Of a DNA stretch of 38,421 nucleotides, positions 6,828 through 34,997 are shown piece after piece. The stretch comes from a virus. The position numbers were made by a program, and so were the translations under genes. The stretch lies in IMG/VR virus record IMGVR_UViG_3300042554_000932, positions 1 through 38,421 of that record. One strand, given 5' to 3'. Under the pieces are notes generated by a model. The model ran no database searches. It had not been told where the DNA came from and saw only the letters and a program-made list of their open reading frames with translations. Position 1 is the first letter of the stretch. Every line of letters starts with the position of its first letter.

Positions 6828-7691
6828 TTAGTTGCCGCAGTAGCCTTCGCACTCGTCTTGGAATCCGCTGAACAAGTGACGCTGCCCGCTCTTCTCGTCT
6901 GCGGGCCGCAGGTCTACTTGGTCAAGCGGCTGGCAGGATTTGTGCAGATATCGGTGTGCGTCTAAGCCGGCCCCAGTGCGGCACACGGCGTCGATCTCCA
7001 CGGCCCGGCTCCATCCTTTTGGGTCGTCTGCCTTCAGCCGCCGCCACTCGTCATCTGACTTGAACGGGCAAAACACGCAGGCAGATCGAGGCACCTCGTA
7101 CGGCATCCTGCCACGCAAGTACGTCTGGCAGTCGCCGCGCGTGAATTGCATCTCCCAGAGCGGGAAGTGGACTCTCCAATTCGATGGCTTTGCCGTGAAT
7201 CGCTGGTTCACGCGAATCACTCGCTTCGGCTCGTCAAACGACAGGCCCATGTATTGGTGTATGACGATGTCTTTTTGCACCGGCCTTCCAGGCACAGCTC
7301 CAACAAGAGTGCGAATCAGTTTTTCCAGCGGTTTGACCTTGAAGTCTGCGGTACATTGCCTCTGAATGATTCCTTTTTCGCCTGTCTGTGGGTGCAGCGT
7401 AAACGCAGGAATAGATATGTAATGGCCGCCATCCGTACGTTTATTGCCGCTGGCATCGCTGCCTTGATCTAAGGCGTCACCTAACTGCCCAGCCGTCGTT
7501 CTCAGGATCGGCGGCCCGCCTTGCTTCTCCAGCCATTCTAGGTGCCGATACACCTCGTCGGGCTCTTCCTGCGTGTCGGCGAAAATGGCGGCGTCGAACT
7601 TGGGCACTTCCGGCTCGTCGCCGTCGATGCTCATCAGGTAGAGCGCCGTCGATTGAACGCCTGCACCGAGGTTGAGGTAGTGCTTTTCCAT
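6828..7691 (-). CDS. PP-loop ATPase of the PAPS-reductase-like family
   Basis: 287 aa. LNLGAGVQSTALYL at residues 6-19 is the phosphate-binding PP-loop (SGGxxS-like). Cysteines C113 (RQCTADFK), C188, and the pair C205xxC208 (ACVFCPFKSDDEW) recur in phage relatives. PP-loop enzymes adenylate a substrate or transfer sulfur. The phage members are often annotated phosphoadenosine phosphosulfate reductase but are rarely tested, and roles in nucleic-acid modification have been proposed for related families. It begins a transcription unit after a probable terminator and a palindrome. Real substrate unknown. Confidence 0.8.
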   Translation of the reverse strand: MEKHYLNLGAGVQSTALYLMSIDGDEPEVPKFDAAIFADTQEEPDEVYRHLEWLEKQGGPPILRTTAGQLGDALDQGSDASGNKRTDGGHYISIPAFTLHPQTGEKGIIQRQCTADFKVKPLEKLIRTLVGAVPGRPVQKDIVIHQYMGLSFDEPKRVIRVNQRFTAKPSNWRVHFPLWEMQFTRGDCQTYLRGRMPYEVPRSACVFCPFKSDDEWRRLKADDPKGWSRAVEIDAVCRTGAGLDAHRYLHKSCQPLDQVDLRPADEKSGQRHLFSGFQDECEGYCGN

Positions 7692-9628: not shown

Positions 9629-9858
9629 GCGTCACCTCCCGTCACGCGGATGGTGCGGGCCTGGCCGTCGAGCCACGTGACGGCGTTCTTTTTCCGCATC
9701 GCTCGCAGGTGGCACATCACGCCGTTCGTCGTCCACCCGTAGGCGTGGCCGATTTCGCGGACGGACGGGCTGAAGCCGTGCGTGTCGATGTAGCCCGCGA
9801 TCCAATCGCGGACGTCCTGCTGGCGTGGCGTCAGGGTGTTCGTGGTGGTGCTGCTCAT
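9625..9858 (-). CDS. Stand-alone LexA-type DNA-binding domain
   Basis: 77 aa. LTPRQQDVRDWIAGYIDTHG, SPSVREIGHAYGWTTNG and VMCHLRAMRKKNAVTW match the winged helix-turn-helix N-terminal domain of LexA (Pfam LexA_DNA_bind). LexA is normally about 200 aa with a C-terminal S24 self-cleaving protease; here the protein ends after the DNA-binding part. Such a protein could bind SOS-type operators without being released by RecA (inference). Its ATG overlaps the replication initiator stop, so it is made with the replication genes. Confidence 0.8.
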   Translation of the reverse strand: MSSTTTNTLTPRQQDVRDWIAGYIDTHGFSPSVREIGHAYGWTTNGVMCHLRAMRKKNAVTWLDGQARTIRVTGGDA

Positions 9859-10691
9859 GTGTCCTCGTCCTTGAGTTTGAGAGTCTGTGCAAGCGCGGCG
9901 ACTTCCTTTGGCGTGCGGTACGGGGCAGGGCGGTACTCGTCACGCCACGCCTTCGGCGGCGGTTTCTCCTCGGGCCGCACGCCTGGCGTCCGGTTGGTGC
10001 CGCCCTTGTCCTGGCACCTCTGGAGCCACCCGACGAGGAATCGCCGCCAGTTGCGGCGTCCTGCCCGGCTCGGGTTCGCAGTCAGCCAGGCCGTCGCCTT
10101 GGCTAGCTCCTGGTCAATGACGGCACCGGGGTAGGCCGTAGCCCACTGCTGACGGTCAGCGTCCGTGATGCCTTCCCAGCCGGATTCAGAATCCCACGAG
10201 ATCCGAGGCTTCGCCGGCGTGCGAGACGCCTTTGGCGGATCGCTCGTCGGAACCGGCGCAGCCGGTATGTATTCTTCTTCTCTCTTCTCCTCTCCTCTCC
10301 TCTCCTCTAGTCCGCAATCTGTCCGCTCGTCATGCGGACAAGATGCGGACAACCTGCGGACAGACTTCGCCCTAGCATCTAAAAGCCGCCTTTTTGCAGC
10401 ATTTCCGAACCTTTCCTCCCAGCCCGGGATGGTGATTGTGTCGCCGTTGACGACCAGCCAGCCGGCACGCTCAACAGCCTGCCAGTACGCTTCGTCGCCG
10501 CCGGCCACCATCCCCAGCATGGCAAGCGGCACCCGGATGGTGCCGTCTGCCGTCACGTGCCAGGCCCACGACCACAGGCGGACCATCCGGCCGACCACGA
10601 CCTCAATAGGCTCGTGAGTCGCCGCGGCCACCTCGAGCACCTCGGGCTTCGTGCCGAGGTTGCAGTCAACGGGAATCCATTCACCGGCCAT
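9855..10691 (-). CDS. Replication initiator / replisome organizer protein
   Basis: 278 aa from ATG 10689-10691. The N-terminal 115 residues (MAGEWIPVDCNLGTKPEV...EVVVGRMVRLWSWA...GWLVVNGDTITIPGWEERF) resemble the winged-helix domain of phage replisome organizers. A charged linker (EERRGEEKREEEY) follows, then a C-terminal module (QQWATAYPGAVIDQELAKA, AWLTANPSRAGRRNWRRFLV, WLQRCQDKGG) typical of phage proteins that recruit helicase or loader. Iterons and a purine tract lie inside the coding sequence just after the DNA-binding domain, as the lambda origin lies inside gene O. No phage helicase is seen, so host helicase would be recruited. Confidence 0.75.
   Translation of the reverse strand: MAGEWIPVDCNLGTKPEVLEVAAATHEPIEVVVGRMVRLWSWAWHVTADGTIRVPLAMLGMVAGGDEAYWQAVERAGWLVVNGDTITIPGWEERFGNAAKRRLLDARAKSVRRLSASCPHDERTDCGLEERRGEEKREEEYIPAAPVPTSDPPKASRTPAKPRISWDSESGWEGITDADRQQWATAYPGAVIDQELAKATAWLTANPSRAGRRNWRRFLVGWLQRCQDKGGTNRTPGVRPEEKPPPKAWRDEYRPAPYRTPKEVAALAQTLKLKDEDT
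10286..10308. repeat. Pentanucleotide tandem repeat in a polypurine/polypyrimidine tract
   Basis: Four TCTCC units plus TCT on the plus strand (GGAGA on the coding strand), within a wider pyrimidine run from about 10272. It encodes the Glu/Arg linker of the initiator protein. Strand asymmetry next to iterons is typical of origin unwinding regions. Unit-number change would shift the reading frame. Confidence 0.75.
10310..10362. other. Iteron array, probable replication origin
   Basis: Three direct copies of TGCGGACA start at 10333, 10344 and 10355, exactly 11 bases apart. Two inverted copies (GTCCGCA at 10310, GTCCGCT at 10321) are also 11 bases apart. A period of 11 is not a multiple of three, so protein repetition does not explain it. 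One-turn spacing, a dyad arrangement, an adjacent polypurine tract and location inside an initiator gene are the features of lambdoid origins. Confidence 0.7.
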
Positions 10692-10917
10692 CCACGCACC
10701 TCCACACCGACGTCCTGCGACCTCGGCCGCTCGTCCACCTTCCAGATTCCGTGTGATGCACCAAGAACTGCGGCGGGCTAGATTCCTCGTCGCCGTACTT
10801 TCCGAGACGATGATTTCGCTGCTCAACCGTCCACGCACGCTGTAGCGCATCACACGCCGCGGTAATTTCCTGCGGCGTCGGATCTCGCATCCGGTTCCAA
10901 GACCATTCACCGGCCAT
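10681..10917 (-). CDS. Small protein with DPTPxEI motif
   Basis: 78 aa. It starts MAGEWSWNRMRDPTPQEITA and continues ACDALQRAWTVEQRNHRLGK. MAGEW also opens the next protein (the initiator), with which this gene overlaps by 11 bases. No helix-turn-helix precedes the DPTP motif here, unlike the two relatives in the window. Function unknown; position suggests a partner or regulator of replication. Confidence 0.6.
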   Translation of the reverse strand: MAGEWSWNRMRDPTPQEITAACDALQRAWTVEQRNHRLGKYGDEESSPPQFLVHHTESGRWTSGRGRRTSVWRCVDGR

Positions 10918-10921
10918 TGAT

Positions 10922-11596
10922 TCACACCTCCTCGTGGCCGTAGGCGAACTCGTACACCAGCGACCGCCAGTCGGACAGCGACGCAACAAACACATCGTCC
11001 ATCACGGCGTATGGGTCGCCGCTGCCCTTGCAGGCTTCGTTTGTGTTTGTCATTCCGACACGAACGCCAGGAAACCAATCAGCGAATGCGTGGCGGTAAA
11101 AGTCGGCGCTGTCTTGGCACTCGCCCGCTGAACGACTCAGGCAGGCACCGTTCCGCCGTATCAAGTCAGGTATCCGAATCTCTGCGATTTCCTTGACGCC
11201 AAAGCTTCCGCATACTCGAAAGCCGCAGTCACGAGAATCTCCACCGCAGACTTTGCGAATTGCGTAAAGGCATCCATCTCGCATCGCCTTATGCAATCCG
11301 ATCTGGTACGCCTCAAACAGATACTTTGCTGGCCCTGTCGGGCGATATGAAGTCTTTGCCTCTAGCGGCATGTGCATACCGCTCACCGGATTGAGCATCC
11401 GCTTGTCGCATCGCAGGCGCTCGGCTAATCCGGCTGCGCTGTAGTCGTATTTCAGCTTTTCTGCGGCATCTTCTGGCAACCTGTCGTGGTAGGCAGGGTT
11501 GCCTTCAAACGACAGGCCGCAGCTCTGCGCGTACTGCTCAACCTCAGCGACAAAGGCGTCGTGCCTTGAATCGAGCGTCTTCCTGACGGCAACCAA
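10922..11596 (-). CDS. Hypothetical protein, possible PD-(D/E)xK-type nuclease
   Basis: 224 aa. The start is TTG at 11594-11596: AAGGAGG lies six bases upstream and no in-frame ATG is usable. It begins one base after the methyltransferase stop. The region NPVSGMHMPLEAKTSYRPTG holds an E-x-K preceded by beta-like residues, followed by helices (YLFEAYQIGLHKAMRDGCLY), as in PD-(D/E)xK nucleases; that is weak evidence. Several cysteines (C in VCGGD, RDCGFRVCG, NGAC, GEC) could bind metal. If it is a nuclease, the methyltransferase next door could be its partner; otherwise it remains unknown. Confidence 0.55.
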   Translation of the reverse strand: MVAVRKTLDSRHDAFVAEVEQYAQSCGLSFEGNPAYHDRLPEDAAEKLKYDYSAAGLAERLRCDKRMLNPVSGMHMPLEAKTSYRPTGPAKYLFEAYQIGLHKAMRDGCLYAIRKVCGGDSRDCGFRVCGSFGVKEIAEIRIPDLIRRNGACLSRSAGECQDSADFYRHAFADWFPGVRVGMTNTNEACKGSGDPYAVMDDVFVASLSDWRSLVYEFAYGHEEV

Positions 11597-11597
11597 T

Positions 11598-12917
11598 TCA
11601 TGCCTCCTTGATTCGCTGGGTTGCAATTGCCGCGTACTCCTGGTCGAGTTCGCACGTAATCCACTTTCGGCCAGCGAGCTTTGCAGCCACGGCCGTCGTC
11701 CCGCCGCCACAGAACGGATCAACAACGAGCCCGCCAGAAGGCGTGAGCTTCTCGATGTAGTAGCGAGCCTCGACAACCGACTGCTGCCAAGGATGGGCAG
11801 ATTTCTCTTTGGTCGAGACAATCAGGTCTTCAACGACGGCAGATGTGTCGAATCTGTTGCCGCCGTTGACAAACCAAAGCATGGGCTTCCACTTCACGCG
11901 GATGCCCCAAAAAGCCATTACCTGACCTGGCCCTTCGTGGTAGCAGCACAGCGGCCAGAGAAACTTGAGGTGTTTGCCTACAAGGCGGCACACGTCAGCC
12001 GTTGCATACTGGCCGAGGTAGCAGATAAGCGACCCGCCTGGGCGAAGGATTCGCGCTGCCTCGCGGGCCATGTCTTCGTAGAGCGGGACCGTTTCCTTGT
12101 CGTAGGGCGGGTCTGTGAAGATCAAATCCACGCACCCGTCAGGAATGGACGGCAGGATCGTGCGAAAGTCGCCGAGTCGTACGATGTCGCCGTCAATGAC
12201 GCCGGCCGCTGCTGCTTCCTTCTTCCGCTCGGCGGCCTTCGCTTCGGCCTTGTGTTTCTTGACCGTCTTATCGACGTGGTTGATTGACACAGCACCGGTG
12301 CGGAGTTTTGTCAGCGTGTCATCGTCTACCAATCCGGTCGAAGCGGCCTCGGTAATACGCTTGACCTTTGCGACCGTGTCACGCGACACACCGGCTGCGT
12401 CACCAATCTTGGCGTCAAGACTGCGTTCGTGACGATCACTTAAATGCCCAGAATTCTGGGCATTTTTAGAAACTTTAACTACACGAGCGCCATCTTCGTG
12501 AGTGATGACGCCGCCGGTCGCAACGTCGATTAGGTCAGGCCCTCTGGGCCTTCCCTTAGGAGCAACCATCATCTGGTGAATTGCCTCTCGCTTTAGCTCC
12601 AGTTCCACCTTCGCAAAGTCGGCCAAGTTCCTGCGGCCGTTCTGGTTGTCGATGATCCACAACATGGCAGCGTTGCGGTCATCGAATCGCATCTCCTCAA
12701 TCTCAAACGCCAGATCGAGACGTGTGCAGATTTCGTAGCGATTGTGCCCGTCAACGAGCGTTAACTTGCCCGCCTTGGACCAAACAACCAGCGGATCTCG
12801 TGCGCAACCGTGGGCCGAGATGTTCGCCTCCAGCTGATTGCGCTCGTCAGCCGTTAGCGGCGGGATGAGTGCGGCGAACTCGGCGTCAACGATGATGTCT
12901 TCAAAAACCTGTGGCAT
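11598..12917 (-). CDS. ParB-like / DNA methyltransferase fusion
   Basis: 439 aa, AAGGAGG nine bases before ATG. Residues 1-110 form a ParB/Srx-like domain (PLVVWSKAGKLTLVDGHNRYE). Residues 160-230 contain a helix-turn-helix (IGDAAGVSRDTVAKVKRI) and a charged coiled coil. Residues 240-439 are an N4/N6 amino-methyltransferase of the order IV-then-I: DPPY at 269-272 and DPFCGGGTT at 400-408. It transfers methyl groups from S-adenosylmethionine to adenine or cytosine; target sequence unknown. Phage fusions of this type are known and are thought to protect phage DNA or alter regulation. A perfect 24-base palindrome encodes residues about 151-159. Confidence 0.9.
   Translation of the reverse strand: MPQVFEDIIVDAEFAALIPPLTADERNQLEANISAHGCARDPLVVWSKAGKLTLVDGHNRYEICTRLDLAFEIEEMRFDDRNAAMLWIIDNQNGRRNLADFAKVELELKREAIHQMMVAPKGRPRGPDLIDVATGGVITHEDGARVVKVSKNAQNSGHLSDRHERSLDAKIGDAAGVSRDTVAKVKRITEAASTGLVDDDTLTKLRTGAVSINHVDKTVKKHKAEAKAAERKKEAAAAGVIDGDIVRLGDFRTILPSIPDGCVDLIFTDPPYDKETVPLYEDMAREAARILRPGGSLICYLGQYATADVCRLVGKHLKFLWPLCCYHEGPGQVMAFWGIRVKWKPMLWFVNGGNRFDTSAVVEDLIVSTKEKSAHPWQQSVVEARYYIEKLTPSGGLVVDPFCGGGTTAVAAKLAGRKWITCELDQEYAAIATQRIKEA
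12442..12465. repeat. Perfect 24-bp palindrome inside methyltransferase gene
   Basis: Twelve-base arms AAATGCCCAGAA and TTCTGGGCATTT meet at a central GAATTC with no spacer. It codes for the KNAQNSGHL stretch between the ParB-like and helix-turn-helix regions. A chance 24-base perfect palindrome in a window this size is unlikely (about 38421 divided by 4 to the 12th). Confidence 0.9.
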
Positions 12918-34133: not shown

Positions 34134-34917
34134 GATTGGGGCACGCTCCATGCAGTGTCGGGGGCTTTCAGCTTGCTCGTGAACTCCGTCGTCCATTGGA
34201 AAACAGGCGTGCTGAGATCCTTGCCGGGCCACGTCACGACGTACTCGCCGTGTCCGAGAATCACTCGCGGCGTGACGAACACGCGGTTTCCGCTTTCACG
34301 CCAGTTCTTCCACCAGTAAATGTCCGGGTCTAACCTGCCGTCATTCCAGGTGCCGTCCGGCGCTGGCTTCGACCAGAACCACGGTTTCTTGCATCGCTTG
34401 AGTGCGGCCGTGCTGATTACCGTGAGCCCGAAATGTGCGGAGTCCACCTCCTGCACGGGCTCGCCGAACCAGCTGGCAGGCACCGTCGTGCTGCCGCTCT
34501 CGGGAGGATTGTCGAGCGTGCCCTTGAGCGTGAGCATCGGACGGCCGTCTTCACGCTTGGTCTGCAAGCCCGTCAGTGCATCGCACTGAAACGTGAGCGC
34601 CATCGTGAAGAGATGCTCAACGTCAGCCCTCGTGAAAAACGTGTCGTAGTCGATGGTGAGGATGTATTCGCACTTATCGATGAACTGCTCGAAGATGCGA
34701 GAGTTGACTTGGTCGCATTTGTCCTAGGGTTGAGCCCCCTGGCATTTAGCCAGAGGGCTCAACCCCAGAATGCGCCGGTCCCCATAGTCGGGCGAATCCC
34801 CAGAGGCATGAGCGCCTGAGCCCATGCGAAGTGGTTTGCGGTAAAGCTCAACCGCGGCATCGACAGCACCGCCTCGACGCGGATGTCTGCCTCTGTGTTC
34901 CCGATCTTGACGATCAT
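34130..34917 (-). pseudogene. Glycosyltransferase gene split by a hairpin insertion
   Basis: The first part (ATG 34915-34917, GAGG upstream) reads MIVKIGNTEADIRVEAVLSM ... RPTMGTGAFWG and then meets TGA at 34759-34761. The second part, after a TAG at 34724-34726, reads DKCDQVNSRIFEQFIDKCEY, ILTIDYDTFFTRADVEHLFT (DxD-type motif) and continues 197 aa to 34130. Removing exactly 41 bases (34724-34764) joins the frames as ...AFW-DKCDQ.... The joined protein, about 249 aa, is a GT-A type glycosyltransferase. An internal ATG at 34603 could make a C-terminal fragment without the DxD motif. Between capsid and connector genes, it could have glycosylated the virion. Confidence 0.75.
34724..34768. mobile_element. 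REP/MITE-like palindromic hairpin insertion
   Basis: GGGTTGAGCCCCCTGGC (34727-34743), loop ATTTA, GCCAGAGGGCTCAACCC (34749-34765): a 17-base stem with a single G-T type mismatch, extended outward by a further CT/AG pair at 34724-34725 and 34767-34768. It interrupts a coding frame by 41 bases and brings stop codons in both flanking frames. Small size, no gene, strong dyad: a non-autonomous palindromic element. Confidence 0.7.
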
Positions 34918-34997
34918 TTTGGTACCTCGTGAAAAAGGAGACGGCTGGCGGGGATTGCTCCCTGCCAGCCGTCCAGAATGACGATAGTGTCAAGCGA

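Follow-up and report, generated by a model that had tools for sequence, protein, structure and literature searches.

The window, meaning the whole stretch of 38,421 nucleotides that was analysed, is a temperate tailed phage: matches to PHROGs identify a major head protein, a head maturation protease, a tape measure protein, an integrase, RecT, an exonuclease and a replication initiator. The predicted replication initiator gene (9855-11078) has an imperfect inverted repeat within it at 10307-10375 (20-bp arms, 29-bp spacer), possibly an in-gene origin, and the gene at 6828-7691 resembles phosphoadenosine phosphosulfate reductase (PHROG 424, E 1.4e-33). Two strong hairpins, at 34724-34768 (20-bp arms at 90%) and 34940-34973 (15-bp arms at 93%), lie between larger ORFs among the structural genes. 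They are unrelated to the palindrome described below; the likeness of its half to the 34.7-kb hairpin, noted in an initial sequence-only reading, is a 9-base coincidence. The gene with the palindrome and the features within it are:

11598-12917, minus strand: host gene, 439 amino acids; ParB-fold domain, linker, helix-turn-helix (HTH) domain and N6_N4 adenine methyltransferase
12624-12917, minus strand: ParB-like NTPase-fold N-domain, residues 1-98, with the motifs DGHNR and NQxGRRNL (alignment, structure matches)
12450-12563, minus strand: linker, residues 119-156, predicted disordered, pLDDT about 50 (AlphaFold model); the palindrome codes for its end
12442-12465, no strand: perfect 24-bp palindrome AAATGCCCAGAATTCTGGGCATTT, codons 151-159; predicted cognate (parS-like) site of the protein of the same gene
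12447-12460, no strand: inner core CCCAGAATTCTGGG, half-site positions 1-7 on each side, co-varying with HTH residues; centre AATT
12339-12449, minus strand: HTH, helix 157-175 and recognition helix 179-193 (AlphaFold model, structure match)
12414-12416, minus strand: codon of D168, HTH column 4, assigned by covariation to half-site position 6 (here Asp with C)
12378-12380, minus strand: codon of D180, HTH column 16, assigned by covariation to half-site position 5 (Asp-C)
11619-12131, minus strand: N6_N4 DNA methyltransferase domain, residues 263-433 (PF01555)

The methyltransferase domain is readily recognised (69 bits against a curated PF01555 cut-off of 26.7), whereas neither Pfam nor NCBIfam assigns a family to the N-terminal half of the protein. 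The AlphaFold model has a mean pLDDT of 86.6, with residues 119-156 poorly ordered, and its structure matches (Foldseek, VIA-align) are Caulobacter ParB, Noc, KorB and pNOB8-like ParB-N: the Foldseek matches 6t1f, 7ng0 and 5k5d all have E < 1e-4, and VIA-align gives Z of 9.7-11.1 over 160-180 residues, in keeping with the ParB/Noc fold of a ParB-like N-domain followed by an HTH of ParB type. DGHNR and NQxGRRNL are motif-like residues conserved in the alignment of relatives. When solved structures were searched by sequence, 5k5a/5k5d were the only meaningful matches; pentatricopeptide matches were discarded as artefacts of repetition, one 29-residue stretch being present in 8 copies.

The palindrome is perfect, with two 12-bp arms and a spacer of 0, and is in frame in the minus-strand gene, where it encodes KNAQNSGHL; the palindrome, its frame and the peptide had been read correctly from the sequence, as had its location between the ParB-like and HTH parts: its codons run from the last residues of the linker into the first HTH helix. 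The low chance probability proposed for it also holds, although not the figure of 0.002: window composition gives an expected number of about 0.005 for 12-bp arms, and arms of at least 12 bp were reached in 2 of 300 Markov-simulated windows. Taken alone, a chance origin of AAATGCCCAGAATTCTGGGCATTT is thus only moderately improbable. There is no second match within 3 mismatches in the whole window, and a search of viral_contigs for the exact 24-mer, a check that the sequence-only reading had proposed, returned as sole other carrier a contig of the same phage with 99.95% identity, and no dispersed copies.

At the same linker between ParB-fold domain and HTH, homologues in phages, prophages, plasmids and an archaeal virus have inverted repeats that differ from AAATGCCCAGAATTCTGGGCATTT. 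Most phage-type relatives carry one; these repeats are perfect or near-perfect and unrelated in sequence, for example ACAACTCCGCAGAAATCTGCGGAGTTGT (L009), AAGGTTGTCAGATTTCTGACAACCTT (L083), TTTTGGAGAATTCTCCAAAA in the archaeal Methanoculleus virus (L053) and a repeat of 39 bp in L164. Linkers of 209 distinct proteins were scored for palindromes against synonymous-codon shuffles, with windows in the N- and C-domains of each gene for comparison. Outside a betaproteobacterial branch, the mean linker score is 8.66 versus 4.81 for the null; 23 of the 209 linkers score at least 12 (null fraction 0.00045), and the N- and C-domain windows are at null level. About a third of the 209 linkers score below 7, and in a minority of relatives the palindrome is weak or missing, among them ParA-paired plasmid proteins (L490, L498, L503) and proteins of gut Firmicutes (L353, L358, L494, L495). 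The chromosomal betaproteobacterial branch (L298-L348; Pandoraea, Bordetella, Herbaspirillum and others) has Ala/Pro-rich linkers without a palindrome (5.86 versus 5.75 for the null) and is a natural control.

Palindrome symmetry extends for about 13 bp per side, with a dip at position 8, and reaches background by position 17; its inner values are inflated, because the set for this profile was picked for having a repeat, yet such selection alone would not be expected to make symmetry rise again, past the dip, at positions 9-13. The centre is AT-rich in either orientation. The linkers of L084 and L088 have identical arms and differ by a central AA to TT change, as if the palindrome centre had been inverted. 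Conservation at the peptide level was rejected as a cause of the palindromes, as the residues vary and the class with odd spacing uses two reading phases. The type of methyltransferase was rejected as a determinant, as three MT-A70 fusions have three different cores; the effectors found behind similar N-domains are N6_N4, MT-A70, Dam or none recognised.

These relatives also bear on the idea that the palindrome is an insertion into a permissive linker, similar to a Rickettsia palindromic element. An in-frame palindrome within a disordered linker would suit such an origin, as would the length of the linker in the window protein, which exceeds that of its nearest relatives by about 20 residues. 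However, homologues do not lack the element: they have unrelated palindromes at the same place, none with the same sequence, and the window holds no other copy, so that neither dispersal nor absence from relatives is seen. We regard the probability of this origin as close to negligible. The pattern that had been named as refuting any such special role, residues kept while changed codons destroy the palindrome, is the opposite of what is found: the residues vary and the palindrome persists.

HTHs were aligned with their half-sites, treating even-spaced and odd-spaced palindromes apart. In the even-spaced class, column 4 in helix 1 corresponds to half-site position 6 (Arg with G in 40/40, Lys with T in 10/10, Gln with A in 5/5) and column 16 in the recognition helix to position 5 (Asp with C in 55/56, Asn with G in 8/8, Arg with G in 4/4); in the odd-spaced class, position 3 is tracked by column 20. 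Helix-1 Asp, the class of the window protein itself, is rare and has C in only 3/5. The rule was fixed in writing before 33 new members were fetched, and every member that it covers obeyed (R-G 10/10, K-T 6/6, D-C 18/18), some of these members being close to earlier ones. The sequence of the core goes with the HTH rather than with the N-domain: the partial Mantel correlation between core and HTH given the N-domain is 0.457 (maximum over 500 permutations 0.076) versus 0.033 between core and N-domain given the HTH. Between close pairs with a changed column 4, position 6 is changed in 60/69 and positions 2-5 are kept in 67/69, while position 6 is changed in 0/29 close pairs with unchanged column 4. 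Relatedness of the sequences inflates some of the covariation statistics, and the mutual information z-scores take no account of it; the close-pair comparison and the blind test are more reliable in this respect. The outer arms (positions 8-13) are symmetric and are explained less well by the HTH.

In a sequence alignment (not a structural superposition), columns 4, 15/16 and 20 coincide with Q162, R173/S174 and N178 of Caulobacter ParB, and in the crystal structure of that protein Q162, R173 and N178 contact parS; a change of R173 to Q accompanies a preference for A instead of G (PMC7383237). One cyanobacterial and one Bacteroidota plasmid protein, both with the recognition helix SRATIERDA, have a common site, TCCCTCAAAATGAGGGA. 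Pairs with N-domains that are more than 80% identical often differ in both HTH and site (197 pairs), which is consistent with site and HTH moving together.

Since the bases of the half-site follow the specificity residues of the HTH, the palindrome is very probably bound by the HTH of the protein that it helps to encode. That it is in addition a self-encoded parS-like site of this protein is, judged from the sequence comparisons, only slightly less probable. The earlier proposal of an operator survives in this part: the site is very probably read, as DNA, by the HTH that the gene encodes. The alternative proposal, an mRNA hairpin that controls translation of the gene, fares badly: the RNA strand does fold stably (-17.8 kcal/mol, z -3.85), but the palindrome bases track HTH residues, and the AA/TT exchange between relatives with the same arms is neutral for double-stranded DNA and not for an RNA loop, so neither loop nor orientation is conserved. 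A role as mRNA structure is therefore very improbable.

Sixteen phage genomes were scanned, each with its own core and with the palindromes of the other phages as controls. No convincing extra copy outside the gene was found in these 16 genomes: near-matches elsewhere in them are no better than those to the control palindromes of other phages, and a regulon of dispersed sites was rejected for this reason. One of the 16, G018, is uninformative, as the scan missed even its in-gene copy, probably because of orientation and mismatches. The genome of L174 has two copies, both inside the gene. In Bacteroidota plasmid relatives, parA adjoins the parB-like gene, and plasmid relatives next to parA have one or two in-gene sites; the parB-like genes beside parA of Runella SP2 and an Emticicia plasmid (L492, gene 929-1888; L497, gene 902-1813) have two in-frame palindromes each. 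The ParB-like gene of the Gloeothece plasmid Cy782202 (L487, gene 341-2188) contains four tandem in-frame copies of GTGGTCACTTTGACCAC at an iteron-like spacing of 36 bp, the last one inverted. Some ParA-paired relatives with short linkers have no in-gene repeat; two of them, L502 and L503, instead have repeats next to the operon that may be terminators or parS. Just downstream of two plasmid parB-like genes there are inverted repeats with 25-30 bp arms (L491, 1883-1939; L500, 2256-2318), either terminators or further sites. Among the 20 large window ORFs that were tested, no ParA was seen; given this and the presence of an integrase, true partition is unlikely in this phage.

Binding of the protein to its own gene is also compatible with an autoregulatory operator, which differs in purpose: the protein on the in-gene site would block transcription, with no loading or sliding. 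The gene itself contains what is essentially the only copy of the site, and KorB, one of the structural matches, exemplifies ParB relatives that are repressors. Nevertheless, the start codon lies about 450 bp upstream of the site, which is not at a promoter, and the tandem copies and ParA partners of the plasmid relatives suggest a loading site; we consider the operator unlikely, if still a serious competitor. Alternatively, the site could be a replication origin licensed by the protein, as is oriL by G38P in SPP1. Such origins have precedents (SPP1, PMC3485210; repC, PMC2783167) and the gene is located between those for RecT and the replication initiator. Yet the protein has a ParB fold and is not an initiator, a separate initiator gene exists, and methyltransferase effectors do not fit; an origin is accordingly improbable.

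By analogy to ParB, we lean towards clamp loading rather than plain autoregulation. A dimer would bind the palindrome through its two HTHs, and the ParB-fold domain may use NTP to load at, or slide from, this single site, as ParB does from parS. The fused adenine methyltransferase would then act on the DNA molecule that bears the gene. A site beside the HTH codons would keep specificity and target linked, and site, HTH and effector could be exchanged together, as a single cassette, behind an N-domain that stays conserved. In the phage form, the role might be clamp loading, cis methylation, autoregulation or replication. More tentatively, and somewhat against the odds, mobile elements may carry a widespread class of ParB-fold clamps that are self-targeting and NTP-switched, with an in-frame loading site beside the HTH codons, an effector that acts only in cis, matched diversification of site and protein and a general code that reads orphan targets; as part of the same tentative reading, the effectors would be an adenine methyltransferase, ParA-coupled partition or others. 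Because many relatives carry their own, differing in-gene palindromes, the target of each such protein would be largely readable from its gene.

Orphan fusions of ParB-fold domains and methyltransferases are common in phages, and we found no reported DNA target for them. If the proposed self-encoded site is correct, each gene supplies its own candidate target, and well over a hundred protein-DNA pairs matched by nature would be available to examine the evolution of HTH specificity. In these proteins, direct tests of partition, NTP switching and cis-restricted methylation would become feasible, and the pairs may yield orthogonal ParB-parS-like systems for DNA labelling.

Single cases of a target within the protein's own gene are already known; for a family-wide, co-varying, in-frame site we found no report in the open-access literature (most subscription papers and all bioRxiv preprints being outside this search). 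Rickettsia palindromic elements share with the sites described here the in-frame palindromic DNA in a coding region, but here there is no common sequence family and no dispersal, and the palindrome is tied to the HTH. Lambda O, with ori, is a further parallel of a target in the protein's own coding sequence. SPP1 G38P likewise licenses oriL inside its own gene (PMC3485210) and the origin of repABC lies in the repC coding sequence (PMC2783167); in contrast to the proteins studied here, G38P and RepC are replication initiators and not ParB-fold proteins. Borrelia ParZ, a possibly phage-derived centromere-binding protein, has its binding site inside its own gene and has ParA as its partner (PMC9712426); it is a single protein with no described site-protein code.

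ParB-CTPase folds fused to N6_N4 or MT-A70 methyltransferases are a recognised phage class with the same architecture as the window protein, the N6_N4 type being enriched in phages (PMC12704722). That paper reports no DNA target for the fusions, and a text search of it gave no palindromes or inverted repeats; it notes that nucleotide binding was not seen for 17 of the 28 ParB-fold proteins tested, for which lack of a cofactor such as a DNA sequence may be the reason. The best full-length structural match of the window protein is pNOB8-like ParB-N (PDB 5k5a, 5k5d; Z 10.6-11.1 over 170-181 residues), although with an identity of about 20%. ParB-parS and Noc-NBS have in common with the phage system a ParB-fold domain with an HTH and a short palindromic site, and in ParB-parS too, HTH residues set specificity, with Arg-G and Gln-A contacts (PMC7383237); even a site within the gene has a counterpart, parS-359 of B. 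subtilis, located within parB (PMC4442127). Unlike in these systems, the phage genomes have no convincing second copy, the phage members carry methyltransferases, with no ParA seen in this phage, and the predicted site is systematically in the linker between ParB-fold domain and HTH, differing from relative to relative.
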